64,000 nt of DNA from Thalassia testudinum (lineage: Eukaryota > Streptophyta > Magnoliopsida > Alismatales > Hydrocharitaceae). The stretch's first letter is position 1. Each line of letters begins with the position of its first letter. The notes below the pieces were generated by a model. It searched no databases, had not been told where the DNA came from, and saw nothing but the letters and a program-made list of their open reading frames with translations. Position numbers and translations under genes: made by a program. Below, piece after piece: positions 7,441-62,104 of this stretch. The stretch lies in assembly GCA_037157565.1 (NCBI GenBank), contig JAZHRO010000022.1, positions 9,920,001 to 9,984,000 of the forward strand, written 5' to 3'.

Positions 7441-8265
7441 CCTACTTGACCGTCTACACTCGACTTCAGACGTCCGACCTCTCTTCCAGTCGTCTGGGAG
7501 TGCTTCCGATCGTCTGGTAAGCTGTCTAGACGTCCGAAATGCGTGGGAGGGCGTGCCCGCGCCTTCCCAAAGCTGTCCCTGCACGCGACAGACCAAATCT
7601 TCCACTTTTAGCCGCATAGATCGACTTTGCGGTGCAGCCTACATGGTCGTAACCGCAAGAGGAACGTACCTTCGTGAAACCTTGCTTTCAAACGTCTGGT
7701 GTCGTCACCAGACGTCCAACCCGTCGTCTGGACGACACGCCAGACGTCTGATTTTAGGAAAAACCCAGAACCAAAGCGACCTCCCGCTCCCCTCACCGCG
7801 CGCAGCAGCGACATCTCCTCCTCGTCTGCAACTCCGGCTGCAGTAGGGTGTCGGGGATGTCTCCCTCGACGCACTCCTCCTCCCGCACGTGCCGCTCCAG
7901 CCGTGTGTCTTCCGGCGAGCTCCCACGAACTCGTGAGCTCAAGCTCCTCCTCTCTTTACGTCGCCTCTCCTCCTCGCTCTTCGCTCTCACGGCCTCTCTC
8001 TCGCTCGTCCCTCTTGCTGCAATGGAGAGGAAGGAAGGAAGGTGGTGGTGGTGGAGTGGAGAAGAGAGGAAGGGGGAGAGGGGTTATATATAGGGAGTGG
8101 GGTTAAGGTTCGAGAAGGAGAAAAGGAGAGAGAGAAGAGAGGAAGGCTGTCTGCGCGCAGCCAGTGCGCAGACCCAACCATGCGTATAAAATTTTCAATT
8201 TCCAAACGTCTGGGGAGGGGTCCAGACGTCTAACCAGACGTCTGACCGACAGCACAGACGTCTTA
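7441..8265. promoter_or_regulatory. AGACGTCT clusters in the truncated Tekay LTR, with TATA at 8084-8093
   Basis: Exact AGACGTCT occurs at about 7742 and three times in 8222-8262, with many one-base variants (AGACGTCC, AAACGTCT) from 7460. A minus-strand TATA-like CCCTATATATAA lies at 8084-8093, between the two sub-clusters. GACGTC is the plant C-box bound by bZIP factors; binding here is inference. Confidence 0.6.
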
Positions 8266-8309
8266 AAAGGCTCAGAACAGAACGGGTCTTTACATCACCC
8301 CATCACCAA

Positions 8310-8724
8310 CCTCGCACCCCATGTGCGAGCACACTATATTCTCCGTGAGGCCACCTTCTTTTGGGACATGCTCCCCCAAACATCCTCCTCTTAACCTCCA
8401 TCCACTTCACCTCCTCTATTCGCATCTCCCTTCTAGGACCTACACGGCACTCGCACCTAAACATCCTCCTCCTCTCAACCTCCTCTGTCCTTCGCTCCCT
8501 CTACTGCCTCCACCGCAGCACACTCTTCATTAGCATCCTCTCCGTCAAGGAGTTCCCCCTTGGCCTCCTCCTCCACTCCCTTTCCCTAAACTTTGACATC
8601 CTTTGCACCCACCCCAAATGGCGCAACCTCCCTCTTCATCTATGACCCCATCCATGTCACCAACGCCCCCTCCCACACCTCTTTCTACAATGCCTTCCTT
8701 GAGATCTTGCACGACTCTATGTAA
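8310..8724 (+). pseudogene. Arogenate dehydrogenase fragment, copy A
   Basis: The readable part is RSTLFISILSVKEFP-type text: STLFISILSVKEFPLGLLL, then FDILCTHP, then a C-terminal piece ending at TAA 8722-8724. These match the conserved core of plant arogenate dehydrogenase (TyrA family), which converts arogenate to tyrosine in plastids. The MFGPES stretch after THP is lost, and upstream segments are shuffled and frame-broken with a repeated LLLSTS piece. No cofactor-binding N-terminus is present. It is a gene fragment, probably captured by a mobile element, in inverted arrangement with copy B. Confidence 0.75.
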
Positions 8725-9149
8725 CTATCGTGAAGGAAGAGGTGGTCAGAGGAGGAGAAGGGATAAATAGGGAGATGAATATAAATTTTTTTATTTTTAA
8801 AATTTTTAAAATATTTTGCATTGGATTTAATGGGAAAAGGATATAGTCATAATAGAGTAACTTTGTAGGGTAATATATATAAATACAAAATACATGGGAA
8901 ACATACATCTTATTGAAAGTGATATATGTACGTAAAAACCTTATATTTATAATTTGATAGGTGTGAAATGATAAGGATGCACCTCATATTTACCTACATA
9001 TCCCTACAAAATTATTTTATTATGATTATATATTAAATCCAATGAAATATATTTTAAAAAAATTAAAAAAAAATTATATTTATCTCCTTATTTATTTCCA
9101 ACTCCTCCCCGTTCCTTCTTCCCTCCTCCCTGAGCTCCTCTCCCTCCAC

Positions 9150-9832: not shown

Positions 9833-10012
9833 CGGCCACCATCGTGGAGGTTAGGGAGGAGTGAAAGGTTAAGGAGGAGGAGTTGGAGTTAAATAGGAAG
9901 AAAAATATAAATTTTTTTATTTTTTAAATTTATTTAAACATATTTTTTTGTTGGATTTAACAAGGTAGAGTTACGAACACAATGGGACAACTTTACAGAA
10001 ATACATATGTCC

Positions 10013-11455: not shown

Positions 11456-14238
11456 TGTTACGACCCGGTTCCCAAATCCCTATAGGACCCGAGATCGCCC
11501 CGACTTGACTAATCCCAAGACCCAGTCGTCCAACAAGAAAGTAACCAAAAAGCAAAAAAGTAAACCACATTCACTATGCTAAGCAACTAACAGTAAAAAG
11601 GTACAGCAGTAAAGAAGTAAAAACTGCTACAGTACATATCACCACCACAACAGTAGAAATGTAACAAGGTACAGGAACATAAAGTACAGAACGTAAAAGT
11701 ACAAAGCATAAAAGTACAAGAGTCTAACTCACTACTACAAAAGGAGTACAACAACAGAAGCTACTGCTACTGGACTCTACTGGACCCAGCACCCTCTGCA
11801 GCCGTAGACTCGGGCTGCTCAACACCTAGACCTAAAAAGGGGTTATGAGTACACAAAGTCAGCGAACGTTGAGTAGAGTGGCAACCAACTAACTAAAGCA
11901 GTAAAAGTGGATAGGTAACTGTTGTTTTCTAATTACATTATTTCACAAATTATTCATTTTCACCCATTGGTTTATTTATCATATCTCTTTCTTGATCTCG
12001 AATGTTCCTCGTGGGAACAATCTTGATTGCAGTCTTCTCCGAAGAGTAGAAGGCACACGTGGTGCTCTCCTGGCTGGGAGAGTCTCCTGTGGTGATCCTA
12101 CACGCAGTCAACCACCCCAAGGTCACAGACAGACGTAACGATAACTACGGCATGCGCGATAAGCGCACGAGTAGCTACCCCACACTGGCACGCGGTCAGT
12201 CGTTTCCGCTAACGGGTACGCCCAAAGTACAGCATGGAACAGTATAGGGCCTAGCCTTCTCAGTAACAGGGGTCTAGCCCCTCAGAACCAAACAGGGGTC
12301 TCGCTCCTCCACAGTCCGCACACCCTCGTCTGACTACCCCGGTTTGCCCAGTGGGCCTAACAAGTCGATGTAGGGTAGCTAGCTAAACCCTGGGTCCCGT
12401 GGGGTGGCTAGCTCTCTCCCTACACTAATAGCTCTCCCTGGTAGTGTATGCGAGGGCCAAAAAATCGGTACAGAGTAGCCAATCCTAACCCCGGGTCCCA
12501 ACCCAAAGGCAGCTAGCTCCGTTCTGCACTAAACAGGGAACAGTCGCTCTCCTTGGTACTACATACTCAAGGGCCAGCTCACTTCCCCACTCACACTTCC
12601 AGATCCATTCCATTTATTTCCAGGAGCTCTACTCTTATTTCCTTGTAGGGTTCATGCTCATATTCCTCATGCCATTCCATAACAGGTTTCATCATTTCTA
12701 ATTCCATTCTCTAGTTATACACATGTAGCTTGTATCTCTATCGTTCACATTTCCATACTCAGGTTATACATTGGCAGCTCATATTTCTATCATTCACATT
12801 ACCATTCTTAGATTATACACGTGCAGCTCGTATTGTATCATTTAAAGTATACAACAGGAAATTCACATGCCACTGTTAACTAGCACAGATATTTCATATT
12901 TCACAGGCAGCTTTTGTTCATTTACAGGCAGTGGTTCACATTTCTATCTACTCATTCAAGACTGCGATTCAATCACGCATACAGACATTTCAAGTATTTC
13001 TCTTCCTAGGATTCATGCTATATCCTAGGTTTTAATCATTCATTCCACACATGCATTTAGGTTATAATTAAATTAGGGGAAGCCACTCTACCAATAAACC
13101 CAGGAGTATTGGGGGCTTGAACGGCAAGCTCACGTGCCTCAGCAAGCCCCGAACCTACAACGGAACAATGTCCTATAATAAGGAACAATCACAATGGAAC
13201 ATTCAGAATAGTATAAAAGTCTTTTAACGAGGAACTCATAAGGAAAACACCGATATCTTGTTTGTGTAAAACGGATCTTGAACGGATCCTAAACGGGTCA
13301 AAAATAGGGTTTCTAACTCAAATTAGACGTCTAGAACAACTTCCAGACGTCTTAAAAGTGTCCAGTATCGTACCACAAGCTCTGCGCCAACCTCAGACGT
13401 CCAGGAACTCTTCTGGACCGTCTAAACCCAGCTCTAGACATCCACCCACCTCTTCGGATGTCTGGAAGTGCTTCCAGTCGTCTGGTAAGCTCCCCAAACG
13501 TCTGAAATGCGTGGGAGGATGTCTCGCACCTTCCCGAAGCAAATCATGCAGGCCACCAGCAAATCTTCTCAAAACAAACCATGCAAAGGGTAGCAACGGA
13601 GCGGCCTGCATGGGCGTATCCGCAAAGGGGACGTACCTTCGCGAAGACCTCTCTTCAGACATCTGGAGCCGCCTCCAGACACCCGCACCATCGTCTAGAG
13701 GTCACTCCAAGCATCTGATTCTGGGAAAAACCCAAAACCAGAACCTACTTCCGCTCGCTAGTGCCGCGCGTGGCCACGCCTTGCCCCCTCGCCTGTAGCT
13801 CCGACTGTAGCAGTGTTAGGGAGGACTCCCCCGACGCACTCCTTTTCGCGCATGTACGTCGCTCCGGCCGTGCACTCCCGGTGAGCTCCCACACGAGCTC
13901 GCGAGCTCACTCTCCTCTCCTCACGCCGCTCCTCCTCGACGCCGCTCTTACGCTCTCTTGCTTGCGCTGGGGTGAAGGGGAAGGGCAGAAGTGGTTGGAG
14001 TGTGGTGAACGAGAGAGGAGGATGGAGGGTTTTATAAGGTTGGGGTTAGGGTTCGCTGGAGGCGGGGAGAGAGAGAAGAAGGGAAGGAAAAAGAGAAGAT
14101 ACTGTCTACACGCAACCCACGCGCAGACGCGAGCTCGTACTCAAAAAATTTTGATTTCCAAACATCTGGGAAGGTGTCCAGACGTCTGACCCATAGTCCA
14201 GACATCTTAAAAGGCTCAGGATAGAACGGATCTTAACA
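11456..14238 (-). repeat. Solo LTR, Tekay-type family
   Basis: It starts TGTTACGACCCGG and ends CGGATCTTAACA, with a perfect 5-bp TSD, CCATT, at 11451-11455 and 14239-14243. It aligns along its length with 40933-43740 and 52041-54447; the latter abuts integrase and fixes the orientation as minus. A TATA-like CCTTATAAAACC lies on the minus strand at ~14031. No internal region remains, so the copy arose by LTR-LTR recombination. Confidence 0.9.
13323..14215. promoter_or_regulatory. AGACGTCT clusters in the solo LTR at 11456-14238
   Basis: Exact copies lie near 13324, 13348 and 14180, with many degenerate ones (AGACATCT, AGACGTCC, AAACGTCT, GGATGTCT) at 13396-13710 and 14160-14210. They flank the TATA-like site. 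Confidence 0.6.
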
Positions 14239-14347: not shown

Positions 14348-14349
<2 letters not shown>

Positions 14350-21600: not shown

Positions 21601-22179
21601 ATCGTTGCCCTCCCGCATTCCTCCATGTGTAGAGACATGACAACGGAAGCATATCAATCAGCCCCTGGTCTGCCACAAAGTCCGCAAACGCCTCAGAGCC
21701 CTGGTCCAATCTCCCTCGGTCGCCCGGTCTGTCCTCAGCCCGCAGAGTAACATTAAAATCCCCACCAATCAGCCAAGGGACCCCCTGGAAAGCTGCCGCA
21801 GCTTGGTTCAGATCTTCCCACAAGACCTGTCTCCTCCGACCCTCCGTCGGGCCATAAACCGAGAGGAGCAAACACGTGTCATCTCGACGTCTCTGAAGTC
21901 TGACAGTGACAACGTTGGATCCAATCACAGAGTCCAGCAAGGAGAACTCCTCCCTCCACCCCACAACAATCCCCCCGCACTCCCAACCGCATCCAGGGCT
22001 ACGAAACCCCCACATCTCTCTCCCCCCACCTCCCTCCACAACCTTCCATCACAACTCCCCAACTTCATCTCTTGGAGAAAGACCACATCAGGCCCCCATC
22101 TCTGAATATACCCCCGTAGAACCGCTCTTCTCGACGGATCATTCAGACCCCTCACATTCCAAGATAAGACCTTAGTCAT
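18614..22179 (-). pseudogene. LINE ORF2: AP-endonuclease and reverse transcriptase, two lesions
   Basis: The start MTKVLSWNVRGLND with VFLQEMKL is the endonuclease N-terminus. A frameshift lies between about 22040 and 21930. Then come GGDFNVTL, SRIDRFLVS and FSDHTPLIW of the endonuclease, RT motif SKAYDSI, a TAG stop at 20417-20419 directly after it, GVRQGCPLAPMLF, the catalytic box QYADDTIFF, and a C-terminal zf-RVT domain (CSLCGGGEEDVDHLFFICP). The stretch 18614-20416 has no further stops. The length is normal for L1. Function would be target-primed reverse transcription. Confidence 0.92.
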
Positions 22180-34884: not shown

Positions 34885-36330
34885 TGTTAGTGGCACAAGA
34901 AGGGGGGTTGAATTGTGCAATAAAATTCACAAACAATTGCAACAAAAAAAATACGTAGGTATTTAAAGAGAAAACCCTTGCGGGAAAAACCTCTACCTAG
35001 GTCTCTCAATCTAAGATTTTGCCCCTACCCAAGTAGAAATTACTAACAACAAGTAATCTTACAATTCCCCTCTTCGTGGACAAACCTCAAGAAAAGTTCT
35101 GCTCCTCTACTAAGAGAAAACAGGAAACCCACAAACTAGGTACCCAAATAAACTATCAAAAACAACAAAATATATTCGTATAAGTCTTCAATGAAATATG
35201 AAATAAAAGGATTAGAATACTCCTTTATCAAGCCTATGAGCAACAGAAAGAAAGTTTGCTCTCAAGAAGCAACAACACAAGTGAAGCAAGAAAGCATACA
35301 AGAGAGCTAAATAAGATCGAGAGCTTTTCAAATGAGTAGAATGTATTTTTCTTTGTTGTGTATGGTTAAGGCTACCTATTGGGGTATATATAGGTGTATA
35401 GGATCTGATTTAGGTCTAAGTAGTTGTTAGAATTTGAATTAAAATGGAATAAATTAAGGTAGAACAGCTACAATGCATACTCAAAGTCTGAGTGTATCAA
35501 ACGTCCGAAAAACCATGACAGATGTCTAAAAAAGCTCAAGAGGAAAAGTAATCGTTACTGGATTTCACAATATCAAATACAAGGACGTCTAAATAAAAAA
35601 ATAGACATCTGAATAGTTAATTTCAGACGTCTAAAAAAGCTTTAGGGTCAAAGTGGTCGTTACTGAAATGAAGTTGGACCCAAACAGGGATCTAAAGACA
35701 TATGATCAGACGTCTGGTAAAAAGTGGAGATGTCTTAAAATGAATGATTAGACATCCAACAAAATATAAAGACGTCTTAGGGTCGACAACATTCCAAAAT
35801 CAAAGTGTAATTGAAATAATCAATTGCGGCCAATTTTAACGTTGGATAGATTCTATTGAGGTTAAAGAGATATCAAAAGCTCAAGGAGGCGTCTGAAAGA
35901 CACTACTAGACATCTGATGTAGAAAACAAACATCTGAAAAACCTAGGTGACAATGGTTGAAAAGATGGCTATGAATCTAGGCTCTGGACAAGATCATACA
36001 CATTTGGTGAAGTAAATCAGATGTTTTATAAAACAGACTTAGATGTCTGAAGGGAAAATGAGATGTCTGAAAAACCAACAAAAATAAATCTTTACAAATT
36101 TAAGGATACGAATATAGATAGGAAGATTCTAAAGACATCCTAAGGATAATTCAAGATTTTTTTACATTATAAACAAATAAAATAAACTACAAAAGAAGTT
36201 CTTTTGCCCTTCCTTTTCCTCGATCCTTTTCTTTAAATCCTTTCTGCAATATGTTAGTCTTTTCCAAGGAAATAGCTCATTTGTCATTATCAAAAATATA
36301 ATTATAAACATTTTAACAATGTACAAGAGA
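34885..36330 (-). repeat. Copia-type solo LTR nested in the LTR at 33390-37370
   Basis: TSD TATGG (34880-34884 and 36331-36335) restores the host LTR text TGTATGGGGGCACGAG. It begins TGTTAGTGGCACAAGAAGGGG, resembling the inner end of the copia-type LTRs at 47600 and 60372, and its right part has TTGATAATGACAAATGA-like text on the minus strand. It ends AAGAGA rather than CA, so the last bases are worn or non-canonical. It holds a degenerate AGACGTCT cluster. Confidence 0.7.
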
Positions 36331-36800
36331 TATGGGGGCACGAGAGACCGATCATGTCGCCTTTGCAGGTCCCACATGCACCCTAGACTAGAGACCTGTG
36401 CCAACCAAAATCCCAACGGACATCAGATGCTTAACTCTAATTTTCCAGTAGGCTTAATAGATTCAAACGCAATGGGACAGATGTTAAAATGTGGGAAATT
36501 CCACTAGCTTTTCGACGATACCTTACTTGCGTGATCTAAAGTCCGAACGAACCCTGAACCAGCCACAGGAAAGTCCTGGTTGAATTGGACCAGGCGGGCT
36601 TGGTCTGGTTGGACCGGCCGCCTGTCTGTAGTAGGTGCACGCCTCTCATAGCTCTCAAACGTCTGGAGTGTGTCCTGGATGTCTTAAACTCGCCCAAAGC
36701 CCTATCTAGTGCCTTTGCTCCTCCCCCGACGTCTGTTACTACTCGTAGCCGTCTGAGGCTCTATCCGGACGTTTGGCACCACCCTCAGATGTCCGAAAGC
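35460..36800. promoter_or_regulatory. AGACGTCT clusters, degenerate
   Basis: In the copia-type LTR (35460-36070) exact copies lie near 35632, 35709 and 35769, with many AGATGTCT/AGACATCT forms. In the surrounding Tekay-type LTR (36655-36800) only variants remain (AAACGTCT, GGATGTCT, GACGTCTG, GGACGTTT). Confidence 0.6.
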
Positions 36801-40932: not shown

Positions 40933-43740
40933 TGTAACGACCCGATTCTCGAATCCCTACGAGACACAAGAATCGGATCGACTCGACTAATCCCAAGACC
41001 CAGTCGTCCAACGAGAAAGTAACCAAAAGAGTAGTAAAATAAATCACATTCACCATGTATATAACTAGTAGTAACAAAATACAGCAGTAAAGAAAGGAAA
41101 TACTACAGTATACATCACCACAACAGAAGAGAAATAAACATGTACATAACACGAAGCTTACAATAAAGAGAGTACAGGTAATAACAGAAAACTACTTACT
41201 ACAGCGGAAAGAAAAGTATAGAAGGTAGTACAGGTAACACTGTTGGGCTCTACTAGGCCTAGCGCCCTCTGCAGCCGCTGACTCTGGCTGCCCAACACCT
41301 GGTCCTGAAAGGGTAACAAGGGTGACACGTCAGCGAAACGCTGAGTAGAGTGGCAACTAAAAGCTAAAAGAAGTAGTAGAGTGTACAGTAGCTGTTATAT
41401 TTTTACTTTCTTTATTCATATTTTTCCATTTATTCACTGTTGATTTATTTCTCAGATCCTTCTCTTGATCTTGAATGTTTCTCGTGGGAACGATCTTGAT
41501 TGCAGTCTTTTCCGAAAAGTAGAAGTAACACGTGGTGCTCTCCTGGCCGGGAGAGTCCCCTGTGGTGGTCCTACTCTCAGTCAACCACCCCAAGGTCGCT
41601 GATAGACGTAACGGTGACTACGGCACGCGCGATAAGCGCACTGGCACGTTGTCAGTCGTTTCCATTAACGGGTGCACCCAAAGCACAGCACAGAACCAGT
41701 ATAGGGCAGAGCCCTCTCAGTAACAGGGGTCCAGCCCCTCCACAGTAACCAAACAGGGGTCTTGCCCCTCCACAGTCCGCGCACCCTCGCCTGACTACCG
41801 TGGTTTGCCCAGTGGGCCTAACAAGTCGGTGTAGGAAGGCTAGCAGAACCCTGGGGCCCATGGGGCAGCTAGTGCTCTCCCTACACTAGTAACTCTCCCC
41901 GGTACGGTGTACATGAGGGCCAAGAGTCGGTACAAAGTGGCCAAACCTAACCCCGGGTCCCTAGGGCGACTGCCTCTCCTCTGCACTAAGAGGTAACAGG
42001 TGCTTTCCCTGGTACTACGTACCCAAGGGACAACAAACTTTCCCATTCACTTTTCCAGCTCCATCCCATTTATTTCCAGGAGCTCTACTCCTAATTCCCC
42101 GTAGGGTTCATGCTCGTGTTTGTCAGGCCAAGCCATACTAGGTTTCATCACTTCAGGTTGATACGCATATAATACGTGTTCCAACATTCAACTTCCTTTT
42201 TCTTTCCAATTTGTATACAAACAGCTCGTATTTAATTTCAACCAACAGAATTTACATGCAACAGTTATTAGTAATAGTACTCTACATTCCACCGGCAGCT
42301 GTCATCCAATTTCAGGCAATTATTATTATTTTATCCACTTATCCAAGACTGCAATGTATATATATATCCAGCTAGTTTTCCAGTCCTAGGATTCATGCCA
42401 TACCCTAGGATCCATCATTTAATCTAGCTTTCCAGTCCTAGGATTCATGCAATACCCTAGGATCTATCATTCAATCTAAGTTCTCAGTCCTAGGGTTCAT
42501 GCAATGCCCTAGACTCTATTAATTGTTGCATAATTGTATAAATTTTGTTAACTAAATTAAAGGGTCACTCTACCCGCGAAACCGGAAGTACTGGGGGCGT
42601 GGTCGGCAATCCCACGCGCCTCTGCAACCCCCAAAACTGCAACGGAACGGGGTCCTAACACAAGGATCAATCACAAGGAGTTTCTCAGAACAGTATACAA
42701 TTACTGTAAACAGGTAGAGGAAATAAATCTGGAAAGAATGAAACTTGAAACGCGGAAAACGGACTCCGAACGGACCCTAAACGGGTCAAAAACGAAGAGT
42801 CTGCCCAAAATCAGACGTCTGGAACTTCTTCCAGATGTCTTAAAAGGTCGATCATGCCATACCTCGGTCTGCGCAGTCCTTTAGACATCCAGAAGCCCGC
42901 TGGATCGTCTGGTCCTAGTTTCCAGACGTCCGATTGTCACCCCGGACGTCTGGAGGTCCTCTCCGTCGTCTGGTACTATGCCCAGACGTCTGATCCGTGT
43001 GGGATGGCGAGCCCTCGCGCCCTCCCGAACAGAACCTGCACACACACACACCCGCTCTCATCACGAAGAGGCACAGAAGAACGTGGCGAACGACTACATG
43101 GCCGTACACGCGTAAAAAGAAGTAGGAAAATATTGTACCTGTCAGACGTCTTCTACGTCGTTTGGACGTAAGTCCAGACGTCTGATTCTGGGAAATTTTC
43201 CCAGAATCAGGACCCGTTTCGCTCTCCGCCCGCGACGCACGGCCGTGTTGCGCTGCGTCCGCCTGCTGCCCGAGCTGCAGCAGCTCCTCCACGCCACCCC
43301 ACGCTCGTTGCTCTCCCGCCAGCCGGCTCTAGCTGCCCCGGCAAGCTCGCACCTTCGCGGTCGAGCTTTCTTCTTCCTCTCGCAACACTCCTCCTTCCCG
43401 CACGCGCGCAGTAGCCACTGCTGCCGCACTCGCTCACTCACTCGCTCACGCTCTCGCTGGCTGGGAGAAGGAGAAGAAGAAGAAGGTGGTGGAGTGAGGG
43501 TGAGGGAGTGGGCGGTGATATTTGAAGGCAGCGCGGGGAGAGAGAGAAAGAAGCGGCGTCATCTGCAGGGAGGGAGAGAAAAGCGAAGAACGAAGGCGGT
43601 GGGTTCAGTCTGTGCGCGCAGGCGCGCAAGCGCGAACCCGTACGCTGAAAAAATTAATACCAGACGTCTGGGAAGGATTCTAGACATCTGGGCCACTTCC
43701 CAGACGTCTTAAACTACGTCTGATGTCCATGTTCGTAACA
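40933..43740 (-). repeat. Solo LTR, Tekay-type family (young)
   Basis: It runs from TGTAACGACCCG to TTCGTAACA with perfect TSD AGTAG (40928-40932 and 43741-43745). At 2808 bp it aligns end to end with 11456-14238. It carries a conserved hairpin GTGCTCTCCTGGCCGGGAGAGTC near 41535 and an AGACGTCT cluster at its right end. Confidence 0.93.
42805..43720. promoter_or_regulatory. AGACGTCT clusters in the solo LTR at 40933-43740
   Basis: Exact octamers lie near 42814, 42980, 43143, 43175, 43662 and 43701, interspersed with GGACGTCT, AGACGTCC and AGACATCT. The last reads CAGACGTCTTAAA. Confidence 0.7.
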
Positions 43741-45828: not shown

Positions 45829-47545
45829 CGTTGATACTAAAGCACCGCGATCGTTTATTTTGATGATAACAAAACACGTGTCATTTAACATTTGCACTTG
45901 AAGTCTTAGATTTCAGGTCAATTGCAAATGGAGACGTGGTTAGACGGAGTTCAAGCTTGCATCCATGGCGGATTGGAGCAGCTTGACGGAGAACAGAGGA
46001 GCTTCGTGAGGAGCGATGGCTTGAAGAAGGAAGGAGATGAAGAATATGATAGATTTCCTTTCCTTGTAATCGTTGTACTTTTGTTTATTTTGTTGCTCTT
46101 TATTTTTGTTTCTTAGATTCATGTTAAAGAGCCTCAAAGAACCCTAACAGTAGTCCTAGGAACACTTGCACAACTCTAGAATACTTACGTTTTCTGTAGA
46201 GAACTTAGAAAATCAAAATAGGATTCAAATAGCCTTTTCAGACGTCTAATCTGAAAATCAGACGTCTGATAAATACTTTTAAGACATCTAAATGTTGATT
46301 TAGACGTTCGACTATATTTAGGCTGGACTTAGTTAGTTCTATCTGATGAAATCAGACGTCCAGACCTTAGTCCAGACATCTTAGAAGACGTCTGATGATT
46401 TTGCCAGACGTCCAATTAGTGGACCGTTGGCTGGCTTAGCAAACATTGAAGGAAATGACCGTTGGCTCGTATCGGACGTCCATAGAGGACCCCAGACGTC
46501 TGATACATAATCGTTTTGCCTTGGCTGACCCAAAATATCTTCTTAGATATTTTCTAGCCGTTGCACTCTCTTGGAAATCCATTCCTGTAGGAAAATAGGT
46601 TTCCAGACGTCTAGACTTAATTCCAGACGTCCTGTATGTCATTTGATGACAAGGCACTAGAACCCCGTTTAGATCTGATTCAATTCAGTAAGGAAACCCA
46701 CCTAAAATCAGACGTCTGACTTTGTTCCCAGACGTCTTAAACTGGTTTTCCAAACGTCCGATGCCAGGATCAGACATCTGATAGCCCTGTCAGTGTAATG
46801 ATTAACCCTGATTTGGGCCTGATTTTCTTGGAGCTTGCACCCAACGGCTATGGAAGCCTTCCAAGGCCTTCCAAAGCCTTCCTCGGGCCTCTATAAATAG
46901 AGGGGAACCTTTGCCACTCAAAAACACACCTAGAACACACCCAAGACACACATAGCAACATACTTTCTACTCTTTTGTGTCCAAGAAAAGCTCTTGCTCT
47001 CCAAGCTCAAGTTCTACATCTAGAGAGCATCAATCATTTGTGCACCCGCTCTCCCGCCGACGATTACGAAAGCGACGAAGCGCTACTGCGTGGTTCACGC
47101 ATCCGCGTCAAGCCAGCACACTTCCATCAAAGGGAAGTTTCCTAATTCCTATAGAAGCTAGGTTTAAATCTTTGTTGGCTCTATAGGACTATATTTGTAA
47201 TTTACTTTATTATTTGGTTGGATATTCGCTTTGCAAATTTCCGCCTCCTTCGTAAGACAAAATTCTTCCTATGAAGAGAAGGGGTTTGAGGTACGCTACC
47301 CTCGTATAAAGTAGCATGGTTGTAATTGAGGTTGTACTACCCTCGCTTAAGTAGTACGTTAGTGGATTTGATCAACTTGGTTGATCGGAAAATCCTAACT
47401 CGAGAGGGTTAGGTGGTGGTTTTCACCCGGTTTAGGTTTCTACCTAAAAATAATTGTGTTCATTGTGTGATTGTCATTTTGTGAGATTGTTATATTTTTT
47501 ATTCCGCACTTTATTGCGTCACCCCCTCCTAGCAGGAAAACTACA
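45829..47545 (+). repeat. Copia (SIRE-type) solo LTR in the MITE, plus orientation
   Basis: It aligns with the reverse of 47600-49328 and 60372-62104. It starts CGTTGATACTAAAGCACC (worn TGTTGGTGC) and ends GGAAAACTACA, with near-perfect TSD TATAG/TATAA. A TATA box TATAAATAG lies at 46892-46900. A short frame at 46977-47186 in the transcribed part shows no known domain. Confidence 0.88.
46235..46900 (+). promoter_or_regulatory. AGACGTCT cluster upstream of the TATA box of the plus LTR
   Basis: Seven exact octamers lie between 46240 and 46740 (near 46240, 46261, 46388, 46494, 46614, 46711, 46731), with variants to 46782. The TATA box follows at 46892. CAGACGTCTTAAA occurs near 46730. Confidence 0.75.
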
Positions 47546-47599
47546 TATAATGGATTTTTTTTAGTAGTAAAAGTGAGAGTGGAGAATGATTGATGTATT

Positions 47600-49328
47600 T
47601 GAAGGTTCCCTAATCGGAGGGGGTGACGTAATAATTGCGGAAATGAAATATAAATAATCTCACAAATAAGCAATCCCACAAGTACACAAGTAATTTTAGG
47701 TGGAAACCCAAACCGGGTGAAAACCACCACCTAACCTTCTCGAGTTAGGATTTTCCGATCAACCAAGTTGATCAAAATCCACTAAACCGAATCACTTTAA
47801 ACGAGGGTGATTCAACCTCAATACAACCACGTTACTTAAACGAGGGTAGCGTACCTCAACCCCTTCTCTCCACGAGAAGGATTTTGTCTTACGAAGGAGA
47901 CGGGAATTCGCAAAGTGAATACCCAACCAAATAACAAAGATAAAATAAACAACAAGTCCTATAGAGCCAACAAAAAAATTATAAACCTAGCTTCTATAGG
48001 AATTAGGAAACTCCCCTTTGCAAGGAGTGCGTCGAGTTGATAACGCGGTGCGTGAGCCACGCGACGGCGCAACTTCGCTCTCGTGGACTACGGCGGGAGA
48101 GCGGGTGCACAACAGCTTGATGCTCTCAAGATGTAGAACTTGAGCTTGGAGAGCAAGAGCTATCTAGGACACAAGAGAGTGGAACTATGTTGCTTAAGTA
48201 TGTCTTGTGTTTCTCTTAGTGTATCTAGGTGTGTGTTTGTGTTGCAAAGGTTCCCCTCTATTTATAGAGGCCTTAGGAAGGCTTTGGAAGGCTTATGAAA
48301 GGTTCTATAACCGTTGGGAACAAAGTCCAAGAGAATCAGCCCGAAATCAGGAACAATCATTGTTCTGACAGGCTTATCAGACGTCTAATTCTGGCATCAG
48401 ACGTCTGGAACTGCACTTTAAGACGTCTGATTTCAAGGTCAGACGTCTGATTTTGGGCGGGTCTCTTCCTGACTTGAATCAGATCTAAACAGGGTTCTAG
48501 CACAAGTCCATCAGACGACATATCGGACGTCTGGCACTATGTCTAGACGTCTGGAAACCTACTTTTACTGTGGGAATGGATTTCCAAACGTTGCAATGGC
48601 TAGAAAATCTCTGAGAAGAGATTTTGGGTCAGCCGAGGCAAAACGGTCATTTATCAGACGTCTGGAAAGGCCTAAGGACGTCTGATAAGGCTCTAACGGT
48701 CATAACCTTGAGTGTTTGGTAAGCCAGCCAACGGTCCACTAATTGGACGTCTGGCAAATCCATCAGACGTCTCCTAAGACGTCTGGTCTAAGGTCTGGAC
48801 GTCTGATTTCATCAGACAGAAATAACTATGTCCATCCTAATAGTTATCAGACGTCTGAAACAACAGTCAGATGTCTTAAAATACTTTATCAGACGTCTGA
48901 TTTGGGAATTAGACGTCTGGAAACTCTGTTTGAACCCTATATTGGTTTTCTAAGTGTTCTACAGAAAACCTAAGTATCCTAGGGTTGTGCAGGTGTTCCT
49001 AGGACTACTGTTAGGGTACTTTGAGGCTCTTTAACATGAATTATCTAAGGAAATAAAGAACAACAAAAGAAACGAAAAATACAACAAGTACAAAAGAAGG
49101 AAATCTATCCTATTCTTCATTTCCTTCCATCTTCAATATATCGCTCCTCGCGAATCTCTTCTGTTCTCCATCAAGCTCGTCCAAGCCGTCCTGAATGCGA
49201 GCTCGAACTCCGTCTAATCACGTATCCATTTGCGATTGACTTGAAATCTAGGACCCAAAGCGCAAATATTAAATGACACGTGTTTTGTTATCATCAAAAC
49301 AAATGATCATGGTGCTCTAGCACCAACA
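47600..49328 (-). repeat. Copia (SIRE-type) solo LTR in the MITE, minus orientation
   Basis: Perfect TSD GTATT (47595-47599 and 49329-49333). Minus-strand start TGTTGGTGCTAGAGCACC, end GGGAACCTTCA. At 1729 bp it is nearly the length of the LTR at 60372-62104 (1733 bp). A minus-strand TATA box CTATAAATAG lies at 48258-48267. Confidence 0.93.
48258..48925 (-). promoter_or_regulatory. AGACGTCT cluster upstream of the TATA box of the minus LTR
   Basis: Eleven exact octamers lie between 48369 and 48915, often as TCAGACGTCTGA or TCAGACGTCTGG. The TATA box at 48258-48267 lies about 100 bases downstream on the minus strand. Confidence 0.8.
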
Positions 49329-49423: not shown

Positions 49424-51345
49424 TTAATGAAAGACATTATAGTCTCCCTTATGTTGCACAACTTCCCATCAAGCTTAGAAGATACTTGCCTACATGGTTT
49501 CTCCTTGGAATGTTCTTGTTCATTCTCATTCTTGTCATTTTATTCATGTTGTTCCTCTATTAATTTCCACATTTCACATATAAATCCGTAAACATTGATT
49601 GCTTACCACAGATTTAACTCCCGTCCTGAAAGGCCTCTCTATTCTTGCAACTTGTGCTACTTCTTTCTTTCCAGTAGGTTATTTGACTTGTGCTCTACGT
49701 AGACATCTATAATAAATGACATGTCCTTCTTTCTATAAGAGTATTTAGTATGTGAAAGTCCCAGGCCACAGGAAGTTTTGTAAAATCTACCCATTTCTGG
49801 AAACTTTCAAGGATACTACCATTTGGTCGGAAAATTTCATTTCTGCTCTAAAATTAACCATCCCATAGAATGTTTGACACTGACAATGATTTTCCTTTGG
49901 TCTGCATCCAAATTAGATGTAAACCTATTCATTTTGGTGAATTGATGAGGTTTATGTGCTGAGAAGTATCGAATACGGTAAATCTGTCGGCTGCACAAAT
50001 GGTGATTTATCACTGAAAGGGACTTGAGGATCATGTGGTGTGAGAATAAACTATGAAGGCATGTATTGGAGTACTGCTGTGGTTAGCTACTCAACTGGTG
50101 TGGAAGAATGCTTGTCCCTTTAAGTTAATCTTTTCATCTTGGAAGAGGTTACTAAGGCGTTGCCCTTTAATCCTGTGCTATTCTGTTGCGAAAACAGAGC
50201 TGATTTCCAATCAGAAAGAATGCCTAGTCTACATTAGGAATAATTACCAATAGATATCTTTACATCGATACACTGCTTGACAATAATGAAACTGTGAATC
50301 TGCATCGCGGGAATGTTCCCTTGAATATAACACTTGGAATCTGGTGTCCAACTATTCCTTCATCTTTACTGCAAATGGGATTTTTTTTCCCCTAATATTC
50401 TGCCTGCTCTTTCGCATTTGTGCCCGTATGAGCACTCTGGCGATGGTTGGGCTTTAAAGCTTCTTGGTGAAATCATCAATCTGACGGTAACGACTAAGAA
50501 AGGAAGGAGATGCAATCTTATTCAGTAATTGCATATTACTTTATTTAGTTTGCAAAGGCAGCTATCCAACTCTTCAGGTGTTTGTTTCCAAGGATAGTGA
50601 TTCTCAGAAAAACTATGTATAGATTTCAAAGGATGCCTTCTTTGTGTACCATATGTCTTTTCGTCGATCAGCCAAGTAAAACAGCTACCCTTTTTTCCTT
50701 GGGTGTCTTTTTGCCTATGAAGCTTGGAAAAGATTCAACCTTAGCTAAACCAATCCTAGACCAAAAGATTCTTGCAGTGTAATTTTCACTCTGCATGTTA
50801 TCATTATGAAGTGTCTTATTATAAATCAAGTGGAACAAGCAAAACAAAGGCTTTAATTTGAGAATTTTGGCTTCAGCAAGTGCTGCTTTGTTCAAGGTGG
50901 AACAACAAAAGTGAAGATTACTCAGAAGTGCAAATCCTTGGGATGTGAGGAAAGGTACTTGAGCCTTATCTTTGGATCACAGTACATTTTCCTAATAGAT
51001 TGGTGATGACTAATATTATGATGAGAAGCCGCCATATCACTTAAATTGAGATGATATTCAAGGCATCTTACAACAACAAAAGAAAAATCAAAAGGTAATG
51101 AGATTACCAGTCATCTTTGAGTATTATTCAAGCCCCATTTTTGGCCACATGAACAGTTGGAAACATTTTGAACTGACATTTGCATATCAAAGGGCATGGA
51201 AAATGAATATCTGTGTCCAGCAAATAAATTAAAAAAAATGTAGGTGGCATTGATCCTAAAACTCAAACAGGTTGACAAGGATGCAAAGACAGGTCAGGAT
51301 AGGAATCAAATTTAAAGCCTGGATCCATTATAGGGACACTGTTGG
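49424..51345. repeat. Dispersed ~2.1 kb segment, copy 2, right part
   Basis: Collinear with 28140-30230 at about 80% identity by eye. The end matches at CCATTATAGGGACAC (30218 and 51328), after which the two copies differ. Confidence 0.7.
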
Positions 51346-52040: not shown

Positions 52041-54447
52041 TGTCACAACTCGATCCTAGATCCCTACAAAGCTCGAGACCGGCTCGCCTCGACTAATCCC
52101 AAGACCGAGTCGTCCAACAAGAAATAACCAAATAACACTCATCAAACCACAATCACACGAGTACAGTAGCTAAATAGGAAGAAATTGATAACAACAGGGG
52201 GAAAAGAACAATAATACTACAATATTACATGTCATAATACAGCCATCACAAAAAAAAAAGAGTACATATAATGGAAACAAGGCTATAGAAACTCACTACT
52301 CCAAACAGTAGAACTAAAACTAGGCTCGACTAGGCCCAGCATCCTCAGCAGCTGGTAGCTCGAGTTGCTTAAATCCCTGACCTGTACAAAGATATACATC
52401 TGAAGTCAGCTAACACTGAGTAGAGTGGTGGCTAAGAAGTAACATGCATTTAACAAGTAGTTTAACATATAACTTTCCGTTTCCAAATATCTTATACATG
52501 TTGGTGCGTAGAGATCTCTAATCAGGATTCATCACATTATTTAATCTTCTTGTTCCCTACAAGAACGATCTCGCTTGTAGTTTTCCCGTGATGCAGGACG
52601 TACACGTGGCACCCTCTTAGCCGAGAGAGTCCCTACCCGTGATAGTCCTACACCCGGTCTATCACCCCGAGGTCACGGTTGCGACGTAGCGGTGACTACG
52701 GCACACGTGATAAACGTGTGAGTAGCTATCCCGCACTGGCAAGCGGTCAGTCGTTTCCGCTAGCGGGTACACTCAAACGTATAGTGCAGAATAGCACAAG
52801 GCTTTGCCCTCTCAAAACAGAACAAGGGTCTCGCCCCTTAGGGGTCTTGCCCCTCCAAAGTCCACATACCCTCGTCTAACTATCCCGGTTTGCCCATTGG
52901 GCCTGACCAGAGTCGGTGTAGGGTGGCTAGTCCTAGCCCCGGGCCCCATGGGGTGACTAGCTCTCCCCCTACACTAAGTAGCTCACCTCGGTACCACGTA
53001 CGCGAGGGCCGACTAGAGTCGACGTAGAGTGGCCAAACCCACCCCGGGTCTCAACCCAACGGTGGTAAGCTCCCCTCTACTACAAGGGATAGTTGCTCTC
53101 TTCGGTACCACGTGCATGAAGGCCAGCTCACTTCCCTTAACTGCTGCCCGTGGGCGGCATATTCCAGAACCATCCAGTTCTCCGTACTATGATATTCTTG
53201 TCTACATTTCCCGTAGGGTTCGTACAAGAGCTTTTTCTACATCCGGGTTGGAATGTGTGGAACAAGCAGTTCAATTTCCATTTTTATCACAGTATGTAGT
53301 CCATTCCAGATAATACAGGAAGCTTTTGATTACTCAATCATTCACATGTATTTTCCTCTAGCCCTAGTGTTCATGCCATAACCTATGGTTCAAGAATTTA
53401 CTCTAGAGCATGCATTTATTCCTTCCTAGGGTTCATCTCAAGTCCTAGGATTAACTACTTGCATGTATTAATTTAGAGATTTATGTTATAACCACTCTAC
53501 CAGGGTAACCGGGTGGAATGGGGGCTCGTATAGTAGCTCCCGACATCTCCGCAGGTCCCGTACACCCGACGGACTGGAGACCTAAAGCATGGATCGATAG
53601 GCCAAAAAGGTTTAAAATGATATAGACAAGGTATCATTACATAGAGAAACTCGTATGGAAAATAGAGACGTTTTATTTGCAGAAAACCGATAACATTAGG
53701 GCCTTACACAGGCCCAAAAACATGCGGTTAGATAGAAATCAGACGTCTGGGAAAGGTCTCAAACATCTTAAAATAGTTCTCAGGGATACCTCTCTCGGTG
53801 TTCCTCTATCAAATGTCTGGAACTCAGTGCTGACGTCCAAGGGTTTCGTCAGATGTCTGGAGATGCTCTCGGACGTTTAAAACTGCCTCGGTCCACCTTC
53901 CAACTTCTGACACATATACGTACACTGTCGAGACTTTGGCAGAGAGGAAATACGGAAAGTAGATCTCTACCAGACATCTCCCTCTACCTTCAGACATCCG
54001 GTAAGATGCCTGGATGTCGCTCTGGATGTCTGATTCCGCGGAAAAATGACTTCCGCGGAACTGCTCTAGCTTCCCTCGCCACAGGCGCTGCAGCAACACA
54101 ATGCAGCACTCTCCGCTCGCTCTCGCTCTGGCTCCCTGCTCTCTCTCCCTCTTGCTCGGCTCCCTGCTCTCTCTCTCTCTCTCGCTCGGCTGTGGTGGTG
54201 TGAGATGGAGAGGAGGAGGAGGGGGTATATGATGGGAGGAACGGTGAGGGGAGAGGGATGGCTGTTGCAGGGAGTGGTGCGAGGTAAGGCCGTTTACAGG
54301 GTGAGGCGTGAGGCATGGGCGAAGAGAGTGGCATGCACACGATACGAGTCGAAAAGAAAAAGTCTTTTCGGACATTTGGCTCTTTCTCCAGATGTCTGGC
54401 GAACGTCCCAGACATCTTAAAGGACCGAGAGGTGACGGGTCGTTTCA
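52041..54447 (-). repeat. 3' LTR of the Tekay-type element
   Basis: It runs from TGTCACAACTCG to CGGGTCGTTTCA. It aligns with the solo LTRs at 11456 and 40933. The internal side carries TTTCGGGGATGAAAC and TTTAAG text (54450-54490, minus), the usual sequence just before the polypurine tract of such elements, but the tract itself is worn. Confidence 0.88.
53740..54425. promoter_or_regulatory. AGACGTCT cluster, mostly decayed
   Basis: One exact octamer near 53742. Many variants at 53760-54040 and 54365-54420 (AAACATCT, AGATGTCT, AGACATCT, GGATGTCT), most differing at the CpG. Confidence 0.6.
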
Positions 54448-54549: not shown

Positions 54550-55843
54550 GATCCGAAGAGACATACCCTCGAAAAGCTCCGGGTACTGCTCTTGCATTAC
54601 CACCTCAGGCTCCCAAGTCGCCTCCTCGTACTGCTGGCTTCTCTACAGAACTTTCACCAGGGGTACCTCCTTCAGTCTTAGACTCCGGACGACTCTGTCT
54701 AGTATCTGTACCAACTTCTCAAGATAGATCAGGTCGTCTCCCACCTCGATGCTCTCATGGCTAAGGACATGGCTGGGATCGGCGATACATCTCCTGAGGT
54801 TGGAAACGTGAAATACGTCGTGCACTCTAGAGAGCTAGGGAGGAAGAGCAAGCCGATAAGCAACAGGTCCTACCCGTTCTAAGACCTCAAAAGGTCCCAT
54901 AAATCTCGGTGCAAGCTTCCCTCTCACCCCAAACTACTGCAGGCCCTTCATAGGTGAAACATGGAGGAAAACGTGATCTCCAACCTTAAATTGTACCTCC
55001 ATACACTTCAGATTAGCGTAGCTCTTTTGCCTGCTTCGGACAGTACACAGTCGTCGATGGATCTGCTCGATCACCTCCTAACTCTGGCGTATCAGACGAG
55101 GACCGACCTCCCACATGGTCCCCACCTCAACCCAACTCAAGGGAGCCGTACACTTCCTCCCGTACAGAGCCTTATATGGTGCCGTGCCGATGCTCAAGTG
55201 GTAACTGTTGTTGTATGCGAACTCTGCCAGGGGCAAATGCTCCTCCCAGGATCCTCTCTAGTTCAATAGCAAGCGCGTAGAAGATCTTCAAGGGTCTAAA
55301 TGGTGCGCTCCGACTGTTCGTCTGTCTAGGGGTGATAAGTTGTACTGAACCTCAGACGAGTCCCTAAAGCCTGCTGAAACTCCGCCTAAAAATGGGAAGT
55401 GAAATGAGTGTCTCTGTCTGAAATAATCTCGCAGGGGACCTCGTGAAGGCGCACCACGTCTCTGATGTATCTCTTTGCCAATTGTGCTAATCCAAAAGCG
55501 ACTCGGATTGGCAGAAACCATGCCGTCTTTGTCAATCTATCTACAATCACCCAGACTGCATCGTGTCCCCTCTATGTCACAGGTAACCCCACTACTAGGT
55601 TCATAGTGACTCTCCCACTTCCATTCTGGAACGGGAAGTGGCTGTAATGGCCCTGCAAGCCTATGGTGCTCGGCCTTCACTGCTGGCATATTAGACACTG
55701 CTGAACGAAAAGGCCAACATCCCGCTTCATGCCTCTCCACTAGAAATCACGTCGTAGCTCGTGATACATTTTCATGTTCCTAGGATGTATAGTAAATCTG
55801 GATCCGTGTGCCTCAGTCAGGAGCTCCTGACGTACAAAAGACG
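54550..55843 (-). pseudogene. Tekay-type integrase and C-terminal domain, broken
   Basis: From right to left on the minus strand: the zinc-binding end (IHPRNMKMYHELRRDF, then WRGMKRDVGLFVQQCLICQ), the catalytic core start GHDAVWVIVDRLTKTAWFLP, LAQLAKRYIRDVVRLHEVP with EIISDRDTHF, then the C-terminal MHDVFHVSNLRRCIADPSHV and the chromo-like tail QQYEEATWEPEVVMQEQYPE. Stops occur after HELRRDF, after CLICQQ and after VKVL, with frame changes. The integrase would join element DNA to the chromosome. The Athila LTR insertion removed everything upstream. Confidence 0.88.
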
Positions 55844-57561: not shown

Positions 57562-57633
<72 letters not shown>

Positions 57634-58847: not shown

Positions 58848-60371
58848 CTAGCCATTGACTGTGAAAGTATAACCAGTATTCGGATCAGCGATTTCAACTG
58901 CCCCATTGGAGTAGGGCTTGACCACCCTAAATGGTCCTATCCACTTGGACCTGAGCTTCCCTGGCAAGAGTTTTAGACGGGCATCAAAAAGCAGAACTTG
59001 CTGATTAGGCTCGAAGGTTTTTCTATGGATGAGTCGGTCGTGGACAGCTTTCATTTTCTCCTTGTAGAGCCGACTATTCTCAAAAGCTTCCCGACGAATT
59101 TCCTCGAGCTCGGAGAGTTGGAGCGTCCTCTGCGCACCGACTAACTGGGATCCATGTTACACTGCTTGACGGCCTAGTAAGCCCGATGTTCCAACTCGAC
59201 AGGAAGGTGGCAAGCTTTGCCATAGACCAGGCGATAAGGTGACATGCCAATCGGGGTCTTGAAAGTGGTCCGGTATGCCCACAGGGCATCATTCAGTCGT
59301 GTGGACCAATCCTTCCTGTCAGGTCTCACAGTCTTCTGTAGAATATTCTTGATTTGCTTGTTTAAGACCTCAGTCTGCCCATTTGTTTGCGGATGATACG
59401 GGGTAGCAATGTGGTGGTTAACCTCATATTTTTTGAGTAGGGCACGGAATTGGGTGTGGATAAAATGACTTCCACTATCACTGATCATGGCCTTTGGTAT
59501 TCCAAACCGGGAAAAGATGTTCTGCTTAACAAAGTCCATGACAGCCTTATAATTGCATCAGCAGGTGGCGACGGCTTCAATCCATTTGGAGACATAGTCT
59601 ATAGAGACTAAGATGTACTCAAAGTCGTTGGATGGTGGGAAGGGGCCCATAAAATCAATACCCCAAATGTTGAAGATCTCGACAATCAAAATGAGCTGGA
59701 GGGGCATCATATCTTTTCTGGTCATGGTCCCCAGAGTCAGGCAGCAAGAGCAAGTCTTAGCAAAATTGTGTGCATCCTTAAATAAGGAAGGCTAGTAAAA
59801 TTCGGACTGCAGAACCTTTGCAGCCGTTTGCTTTCCTGAGAAGTGGTCACCACAAGCCTGGTAGTGACAAAAAGATAGCACACTCTGAACTTCGTCCTCA
59901 GGGATACACCTCCTGATGATCTAGTTGGCACAGAGGCGAAACAACATGAGATCATCCCAGAAATAATGCTTGGCCTCGGCCAAGAACTTGTCCCGTTGCT
60001 GTCTGGACCAGTTGTGCAAGGTCTGACCTACAACTAGGTAGTTGACATAGTTAGCATACCAAGGTAGCTTCTTGTCTTGCACAGCCAGAATGTGTTCATC
60101 GGGAAAGGTGTCAGATAAAGGTAGGTAGGGCCCAATGTGGTCTGGGTGAAGTCTGGATAGGTGGTCAGCCACCACATTCTTTGATTCGGCTTTGTCGCGG
60201 ATTTCCAGGTCAAATTCCTGCAAGAGAAGGATCCATCTGATAAGCTTGGGCTTCGCATCCTTTTTAGGAAATAGGTGCCGGATGGCAGAATGGTCCGTAT
60301 AGATGGCCACGTGGGATCCCAGAAGGTAAGATCGAAACTTTTCAAGTCTAAAAACTTCAGCAAGCAGTTCT
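58848..60371 (-). pseudogene. Athila RNase H and integrase, broken
   Basis: Reading leftwards on the minus strand: RNase H (KFRSYLLGSHVAIYTDHSA, KNVVADHLSRLHPDHIGP), the zinc-binding domain ([33 protein letters not shown]), the catalytic core ([52 protein letters not shown]) and the C-terminus ([20 protein letters not shown], then LKLLPGKLRSKWIGPFRV). Stops occur after LCAN, after SEFY and near AVAT, and a further frame break lies near 59120. The SIRE LTR at 60372 cuts RNase H. Confidence 0.9.
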
Positions 60372-62104
60372 TGTAGGTTCTCCCTTCGCGGAGGGGTGAC
60401 GTAATAATTGCGGAAATAAAATAAACAATCTCACAAATAGGCAATCACACGAGTACACAAAGATTTTTAGGTGAAAACCCAAACCGGGTGAAAACCACCA
60501 CCTAACCCTCTCGAGTTAGGATTTTCCGATCAACCTAGTTGATCAAATCCACTAACCGAATCACTTTGAAACGAGGGTGATTCAACCTCAGTACAACCAC
60601 GCTACAAGTACGAGGGTAGCGTTCCTCAACCCCTTCTCTCCACGAGAAGGATTTTGTCCCACGAAGGAGACGGGAATTCGCAAAGCGAATACCCAACCAA
60701 AAGACAAGGTAAAATAAACAACAAACCTATAGAGCCAACAAAGTAATAAACCTAAGCTTCTATAGGATTTAGGAAACTCCCCTTTGCAAGGAGTGCGTCG
60801 ACGATGACGCGGGTGCGTGAGCCACGCAACGACACAATGTCGCTCTCGTGAACAACGGCGGGAGAGCGGGTGCGCGAAGGCTTGATTCTCTCAAGATGAT
60901 GGAGCTTGAGCTTAGAGAGCAAGATCTAGCTAGGACACAAGAGAGTGGAACTATGTTGCTTAAGTGTGTCTTGTGTTTCTCTTGGTGTATCTTTTGTCTC
61001 TAAGTATGTATTTGTGTTGCAAAGGTTCCCCTCTATTTATAGAGGCCTTAGGAAGGCTTTGGAAGGCTTAGGAAAGGTTTTATAGCCGTTGGGAACAAAG
61101 CCTAAGAGAATCAGGCCGAAATCAGGACAATGATTACATTTGACAGGGTAATCAGACGTCTAACGCTTTCATCAGACGTCTGGAAGGCCACTTTAAGACG
61201 TCTGATTTCAAGGTCAGACGTCTGATTCTATGCGGGTTTCCTCCTGACTTGAATCAGATCTAAACAGGGTTTTCGCGCAAGTCCATCAGACGATATACAG
61301 GACGTCTGGTACTATGTATGGATGTCTGGAAACCTACTTTTACTGTGGGAATTGATTTCCAAACGTTGCAACGGCTAGAAAATCTCTGAGAAGAGATTTT
61401 GGGTCAGCCGAGGCAAAACGGTCATTTATCAGACGTCTGGAAATGCCTAAGGACGTCTGATAGGGCTCTAACGGTCATATTCTTGAGTGCCTGCTAAGGT
61501 AGCCAATGGTCCACTATCTGGACGTCTGGCAAGTCCATCAGACGTCTCCTAAGACGTCTGGTATAAGGTGTGGACGTCTGATTTCATCAGACAGAACTAC
61601 CTATGTCCAGCCTAACAGTTATCCGACGTTTGAAACAACAGTCAGACGTCTTAAAATACTTTATCAGACGTCTGATTTGGGAATTAGACGTCTGGAAGTG
61701 CTGTTTGAGCCCTATATTGGTTTTCTAAGTATTCTACAGAAAACCTAAGTATCCTAGGGTTGTGCCAGTGTTCCTAGGACTACTGTTAGGGTTCTTTGAG
61801 GCTCTTTAACATAATTTTCTAAGGAAAATAAAAAGAGCAAGAAAATAAAGACAAGAGATACAAGAAAGGATTAAAAAGAATCTATCATATTCTTCTTGTT
61901 TTCTATCTTCAATCTGTCGCTCCACGCGAACCTCCTCTGTTTTCTGTCAAGCTCCTCCAATCCATCCTGGATGCGAGCTCGAGTTCCGTCTAAACACGTC
62001 CACATTTGCAATTGACCTGAAATCTAGGACTCAAATTGCAAATGTTAAATAACACGTGTTTTGTTATCATCAAAACAAATGATCGTGGTGCTCTAGCACC
62101 AACA
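60372..62104 (-). repeat. SIRE-type 3' LTR
   Basis: Minus strand TGTTGGTGCTAGAGCACCACG to GGGAGAACCTACA. It is nearly identical in organisation to the solo LTR at 47600-49328 and carries a TATA box (CTATAAATAG, 61033-61042). Confidence 0.92.
61033..61705 (-). promoter_or_regulatory. AGACGTCT cluster upstream of the SIRE LTR TATA box
   Basis: Ten exact octamers between 61153 and 61693 with the same order as in 48369-48915; TATA box at 61033-61042. Confidence 0.8.

Follow-up and report, generated by a model that had tools for sequence, protein, structure and literature searches.

The 64-kb window analysed here is a stretch of Thalassia testudinum DNA (contig JAZHRO010000022.1, positions 9,920,001 to 9,984,000), in which eight long terminal repeats (LTRs) of two retrotransposon superfamilies, 15,478 bp in all, carry arrays of the palindromic octamer AGACGTCT (the box; extended consensus YCAGACGTCTGR). 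The boxes are paired at a distance of exactly 20 bp and follow one another in the phase of the DNA helix. They are probably promoter-proximal, helically phased regulatory arrays for a dimeric host DNA-binding protein, which would drive LTR transcription from upstream of the TATA box. An earlier note on this DNA had pointed out the octamer, its occurrence in both superfamilies and a possible common enhancer role, whereas the 20-bp pairing and the helical phasing are new, and the precedent of the repeated motif (RM) boxes of Sireviruses goes beyond that note too. The LTRs and their arrays are as follows, with sites counted at no more than one mismatch unless stated otherwise and with target site duplications (TSDs) where found.

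45829..47545, plus strand: S1, Sirevirus solo LTR of 1717 bp (self-BLAST and sequence), TSD TATAG/TATAA with one mismatch.
46240..46779, plus strand: S1 array, 13 sites, 7 exact.
46892..46898, plus strand: S1 TATA box, TATAAAT.
47600..49328, minus strand: S2, Sirevirus solo LTR of 1729 bp, TSD GTATT, in the opposite orientation to S1.
48379..48918, minus strand: S2 array, 16 sites, 11 exact; TATA box at 48260-48266.
60372..62104, minus strand: S3, Sirevirus 3' LTR of 1733 bp, its low end adjoining a Ty3 pol (RT_RNaseH).
61154..61693, minus strand: S3 array, 14 sites, 10 exact; TATA box at 61035-61041.
34885..36318, minus strand: F, Sirevirus-like LTR of about 1434 bp between pieces of a decayed Ty3-type LTR.
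35520..36068, minus strand: F array, 11 sites, 3 exact; TATA box at 35386-35392.
11456..14238, minus strand: GA, Ty3-type solo LTR of 2783 bp, TSD AATGG; 9 sites, 3 exact; TATA box at 14030-14036.
40933..43740, minus strand: GB, Ty3-type solo LTR of 2808 bp, TSD CTACT; 10 sites, 6 exact.
52041..54447, minus strand: GC, Ty3-type 3' LTR adjoining remnants of an integrase and a chromodomain; 6 sites, 1 exact.
7428..8294, minus strand: GD, part of a Ty3-type LTR; 10 sites, 4 exact; TATA box at 8086-8092.
36657..36794, strand not given: decayed Ty3-type array, 6 sites with one or two mismatches, four 20-bp pairs.

We used two sets of sites, the exact octamers (n = 45) and those with at most one mismatch (n = 89 over the eight LTR stretches). 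The 45 exact octamers of the window compare with a mean of 0.66 and a maximum of 2 in the dinucleotide-shuffled window (0 of 100 shuffles reached 45). All 45 fall within the eight LTRs, and shuffled LTRs held 0.28 on average and at most 3 (300 shuffles). Among palindromic 8-mers, AGACGTCT ranks in frequency next after TATATATA and ATATATAT. The longer string CAGACGTCTTAAA occurs at seven places with both strands counted, three in Ty3-type LTRs (8255, 13344, 43701) and four in Sirevirus LTRs (46729 and 61643 as written, 48417 and 61192 as the complement). The claims of the earlier note that about 45 octamers stand against about one expected by chance, that they are confined to LTRs and that the longer string is common to both superfamilies are borne out, as is enrichment over shuffled LTRs for the eight LTRs of this window. 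The stretches that it named do hold the motif arrays, but they are not whole LTRs, which are longer. Its nested copia-type LTR at 35460-36070 (F) really extends over about 34885-36318, with the look of one more Sirevirus, and the decayed Ty3-type array that it saw at 36655-36800 was recovered.

The 89 sites form 34 pairs exactly 20 bp apart, a count that includes homologous sites of related copies, where 1.6 were expected; none of 2000 random placements within the same spans had as many. These pairs are distributed over S1-S3 (19), GA-GD (12) and F (3). When S2, GB, GD and F (four of the eight stretches) were taken alone, there were still 19 adjacent gaps of 20 bp. Among the other distances up to 70 bp, 49 of 54 are 12, 22, 32, 42, 52 or 62 bp, or 40, 50 or 60 bp, and the pattern becomes looser beyond 70 bp. 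Pairs 32 bp apart are likewise in excess (10 against 1.6 expected; 0 of 2000 placements). With the 20-bp pairs removed, the 52 distances up to 110 bp in S2, GB, GD and F gave best periods of 10.1-10.4 bp, with a phase R of 0.71 (period of about 10.2-10.4 bp) against 0.27 (standard deviation 0.10) when the blocks were jittered by up to 10 bp, and none of 2000 trials was as high. Elsewhere in the window, sites with at most two mismatches form five 20-bp pairs, and the decayed Ty3-type array accounts for four of these.

A regular step of this kind might be a mutational by-product, left by tandem duplication of a 20-bp unit or by chance, and the alignment does show one extra 12-bp unit in GD relative to its relatives. 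However, we consider this explanation very improbable, with counts and spacing far above those of the shuffles. The 12-bp spacers one step apart have an identity of 0.31, against 0.33 for any two spacers of the same LTR, and for the middle six spacer bases the values are 0.225 and 0.26 (random ones). Tandem Repeats Finder (TRF) reported no 20-bp array over the motif clusters. Because the spacers are unrelated and no such TRF array exists, the 20-bp spacing is not left from tandem duplication, which was rejected as the origin of the arrays.

The boxes are better conserved than their surroundings. In alignments, 8-mers that form an exact box in one Sirevirus LTR are retained in the others at 0.94-0.98, compared with 0.79-0.85 for other U3 8-mers (p from 5e-5 to 0.002 by resampling). 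The corresponding values for the Ty3-type LTRs are 0.83-0.88 and 0.50-0.59 (p < 0.001 in GA, GB and GD; p = 0.04 in GC with its single site). The outcome was the same against CG-centred 8-mers, with just 13-16 such controls per Sirevirus copy.

The position of the arrays in the LTR is also regular. Measured from start to start and with boxes of at most one mismatch, the distance from the last box to the TATA box is 120 bp in S1, S2 and S3, 135 bp in F, 119 bp in GD and 151 bp in GA. The sites of S1-S3 occupy LTR positions 411-951 of 1717-1733, and the TATA box is at 1063/1064. Occurrence in two superfamilies and a place near promoters are supported, and the shared enhancer-like role suggested earlier is supported as the likeliest reading.

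In the mechanism that we propose, a dimeric host DNA-binding protein would recognize the palindrome YCAGACGTCTGR, and two dimers would sit two helical turns (20 bp) apart on the same face of the DNA. Such pairs would be repeated at whole-turn steps (12, 22, 32 and 42 bp), and the resulting co-operative complex upstream of the TATA box would drive LTR transcription. Sireviruses would carry the array as their own version of the RM boxes known from this group (discussed below), and the Ty3 chromovirus-like LTRs of the same genome have this box too, their second array lying past the TATA box in what is presumably the leader. More tentatively, and with some doubt, we suggest that one host complex with a fixed 20-bp, same-face geometry was independently adopted by retrotransposons of the two superfamilies. 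If this is true, a shared phased "password" array, and not element ancestry, would decide which elements switch on together. The exact 20-bp helically phased pair would be a concrete probe for finding the protein that binds RM boxes, and with the same array in Ty3-type LTRs, one experiment could ask about a shared host switch and about convergence versus exchange.

Several observations weigh against the regulatory reading. Pairs 12 bp apart are weak when taken alone (5 against 1.7 expected; 52 of 2000 placements had as many). We saw no TATA box at the corresponding position of GB or GC, and S3 and F contain a second TATA-like match apiece. The Ty3-type LTRs possess a second cluster of boxes, which in GA and GD lies some 340-710 bp beyond the TATA box and so in the presumed transcribed leader. 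The CpG dinucleotides of S1-S3 are kept in 8-10 of 11-12 cases within boxes and in 33-46 of 50-57 cases elsewhere, which is a modest difference. The octamer differs from the preferred TGA site TGACGTCA as given in the available part of a published account (PMC9360754). In a survey of ACGT pairs in the promoters of four plants, spacer 16 would match the 20-bp distance observed here, and the accessible portion of that survey names no outlying peak at this spacer (PMC3622567). Finally, the arrays show mild extra RNA folding.

This folding touches on a different explanation, already allowed for in the earlier note, in which the palindromes act in RNA and adjacent boxes pair as hairpins for packaging, dimerisation or small-RNA production. 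Folding was tested on both strands of seven of the eight arrays (S1-S3, F, GA, GB and GD). When boxes were kept and spacers were shuffled, the native arrays had the lower folding energy in 14 of 14 tests (z -1.2 to -4.9), and maize Sirevirus palindromes are described as small-RNA hotspots in the sections available (PMC10760457, PMC5311732). However, z was -2.3, -3.0, -0.7 and -0.5 when boxes with up to two mismatches were also kept (four arrays, sense strand only), and in six of the seven arrays the antisense strand folds no worse than the sense strand. LTR sequence upstream of the promoter is transcribed only as U3 at the 3' end, and this holds for the upstream arrays. The period of 10.2-10.4 bp suits double-stranded B-DNA, and the phasing therefore points to a protein on DNA over a role in RNA. 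The extra folding predicted by a folded-RNA or packaging role is thus seen, but it weakens as more boxes are kept, and we regard such a role as improbable and weaker than the DNA reading.

The boxes might also be recognized not by an activator but by a VANC-like protein that acts in trans, either in silencing or against it. Like the VANC target motifs of VANDAL elements, they are dense short motifs in the non-coding DNA of transposable elements, and VANC6 motifs occur also in AT9TSD1, which is unrelated to VANDAL, according to the available text (PMC5735166). In addition, each strand of CAGACGTCTG has one cytosine in CG context and two in CHG context. VANC motifs, however, build up by tandem repeats in one orientation and are recognized by an element-encoded protein (PMC5735166), whereas the box here is palindromic, the spacers are unrelated, the arrays did not arise from tandem repeats and a candidate protein is lacking. 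We therefore give the silencing explanation little likelihood.

As for the protein that may bind, the GACGTC core of the bZIP C-box is present in the box, as the earlier note had remarked, and the host factor is perhaps a bZIP. The as-1 element, which is used by a pararetrovirus promoter, has 12 bp between the centres of its sites, compared with 20 bp here. In the accessible part of the relevant paper, TGA bZIPs are reported on the C-box GACGTC, and as-1 and TGA bZIP sites are likewise ACGT-core palindromes in tandem, for which spacing matters (PMC9360754). These sites have the TGACG preferred by TGA bZIPs, which is absent from AGACGTCT, and the C-box assignment is accordingly tentative.

The two superfamilies share the box, its spacing and one sub-motif, but little spacer. 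Convergence on one binding geometry therefore fits best, and one 20-bp pair may have been exchanged. An origin of the arrays by exchange, in which an array was captured from the other superfamily and its spacers have diverged since, would be compatible with the regulatory reading. It draws on the 20-bp pair at S1 454 and GA 887, which have the same orientation and agree in 21 of the 35 positions outside the motif, a match that none of 200 shuffles equalled, with 19 of 35 for S2 and S3 against GA. It draws also on a TAAA flank beside the box in 13 of 178 outward flanks, found in all three groups at about five independent places, many being the same site in related copies; a rough estimate from composition is about 1 in 178. 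However, the flanks of Sirevirus and Ty3-type sites beyond the 12-mer have an identity of 0.262, compared with 0.255 (standard deviation 0.002) in shuffles, and this small excess counts as a trace at most because the copies are related. When whole 20-bp pairs were compared, the match between Sirevirus and F was reached by 7 of 200 shuffles and that between F and Ty3-type by 65 of 200. We thus regard exchange as a rather unlikely origin. Wholesale exchange of a cassette, which the earlier note had entertained, was mostly rejected because the flanks are near chance, with the S1/GA pair as the exception.

The gain of heat-shock sites by COPIA families is a precedent for convergence. In ONSEN and other heat-responsive COPIA elements of Brassicaceae, several LTR families likewise have a site for the same host factor, and the gains are mostly species-specific, as far as the available text goes (PMC5059998). 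Those sites are of the nGAAn type and the families named are treated as COPIA, whereas copia and Ty3 types share one box here. A palindrome of maize Sireviruses is also found in Helitrons, which likewise places one palindrome in two unrelated orders of transposable elements; maize Ty3 elements are described in the portion consulted as lacking an obvious structure peak, whereas the Ty3-type LTRs here carry the box (PMC10760457).

RM boxes, as described for 13 Sireviruses in the available parts of Bousios 2010 (PMC2829016), are palindromic and for the most part cluster in the upper half of the LTR, generally ahead of a TATA box in mid-LTR. They number 8-32 copies per element, with 3-14 in the 3' LTR. 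The paper reports none in the other copia elements that it compared, and it identified no protein that binds all of them. S1-S3 are alike in the palindrome, in at least eight copies and in their place in the upper half before the TATA box, but their arrays lie slightly outside the published start (200-400 bp) and span (300-500 bp). The inner part of the Usier RM box GTCGGACGTCCGAC differs from TCAGACGTCTGA by a change of CGG to CAG and the mirror change. The CGG-CCG core is present in 12 of the 13 published RM boxes, in place of which CAGAC-GTCTG is found here, and CGGAC accounts for 6 of the 130 half-sites around GACGTC. Judged from these sequences, we take the boxes of S1-S3 to be a variant of Sirevirus RM boxes with CAGAC/GTCTG replacing the CGG-CCG core. 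The usual G+C threshold of a CpG island is 0.5, and the arrays of S1-S3, at 0.38-0.47, are below it. By this measure, they do not form the CpG island described for RM clusters (PMC2829016). The box region of GB is CpG-rich (G+C 0.47-0.64, CpG observed/expected 0.89-1.2). RM boxes were described for Sireviruses, whereas the same box occurs here also in Ty3-type LTRs. The accessible text of the RM-box paper contained no spacing rule, a word search for four spacing terms included (PMC2829016). Among the open-access papers listed in our searches, none was evidently about this box in the LTRs of Ty3 elements or about RM boxes phased at 20 bp, and among the matches listed for papers with AGACGTCT, no title was about an LTR motif.

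The class assignments of the elements use the following neighbouring features.

62107..62114, minus strand: polypurine tract AGGGGGAG, the terminal copy, separated from the S3 LTR by 2 bp.
63063..63998, minus strand: copia-type gag near S3 (Retrotran_gag_2, E 1.2e-26; zf-CCHC, E 0.0002), truncated where the window stops.
54565..54834, minus strand: remnant of an integrase C-terminus and a chromodomain, interrupted by one stop (the Chromo match, E 0.0011, falls short of the curated cut-off).

S1-S3 carry published Sirevirus features. The terminal copy of AGGGGGAG starts 10 bp before the S3 LTR and is one of six copies within about 280 bp (up to 62383); the published mark of a Sirevirus, in the sections available, is this octamer 10 bp before the 3' LTR together with several linker copies (PMC2829016). 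The polypurine tract bears on S3 only; S1 and S2 are solo LTRs and are classed as Sirevirus by homology. A polyC-rich CACCCC(C)TCC ends 16-18 bp from the 3' end of the LTR in all three, and the integrase signal described for Sireviruses lies about 21 bp from the LTR end (PMC2829016). F has a similar polyC signal, CAACCCCCC, and a similar LTR start, and therefore looks like a further Sirevirus; no clear TSD was found for it.

S1 and S2 are 54 bp apart in opposite orientations and have a TSD each, and we therefore read them as two separate solo LTRs; the difference in orientation is masked by the palindromic nature of the box. Together (45829-49328) they form a 3.5-kb inverted repeat, with a complementarity of 79-95% over the eight largest of the arm pieces listed. 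A transcript through this repeat could fold into long double-stranded RNA.

No pol was seen between the gag and the S3 LTR (62105-63998). The gag almost directly precedes the linker and 3' LTR of S3, suggesting an internally deleted or gag-only Sirevirus derivative. A protein search with the gag gave 110 proteins; among the matches listed, those with an organism are from plants and many are without one. No relative of the gag protein was found in viral_contigs. A pattern for the Sirevirus junction of polypurine tract and LTR matched 30 stretches, and BLAST of the window against the loci retrieved gave no match at E 1e-8. A triple-box pattern matched a single contig in viral_contigs (L001, positions 1-1420), where the boxes AGACGTCT / AAACGTCT belong to a genuine 21-bp tandem repeat whose spacers are repeated as well; we regard it as unrelated to the arrays of the LTRs.

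GA, GB and GD were grouped with GC by LTR homology (self-BLAST). The integrase pieces beside GC had no Pfam match and were read by eye, and no reverse transcriptase was located for the GA-GD copies. GA-GD are described here as chromovirus-like Ty3 LTRs, and Tekay, the clade named in the earlier note, is a putative assignment. The 5' end of GD is at 8294, and its 3' end was not located. Upstream, in the minus sense, of the Ty3 gag found at 1736-2461, there is a decayed pair AGACATCT / AGACGACT at 3810-3838, its members 21 bp apart and with a TTAAA flank, which may indicate a further family of carriers.

The window also contains a LINE (long interspersed nuclear element) at 18614-22048 (minus strand), whose two long open reading frames encode endonuclease, reverse transcriptase and zf-RVT domains. 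Another open reading frame, at 31395-32387 (330 amino acids), matches DUF1639, and a protein search with it gave no homologue at E 1e-10. A tandem array at 39920-40603 has a period of about 193 bp and 3.6 copies, and a dispersed repeat at 28134-30231 and 49425-51339 is about 71-73% identical between its copies.

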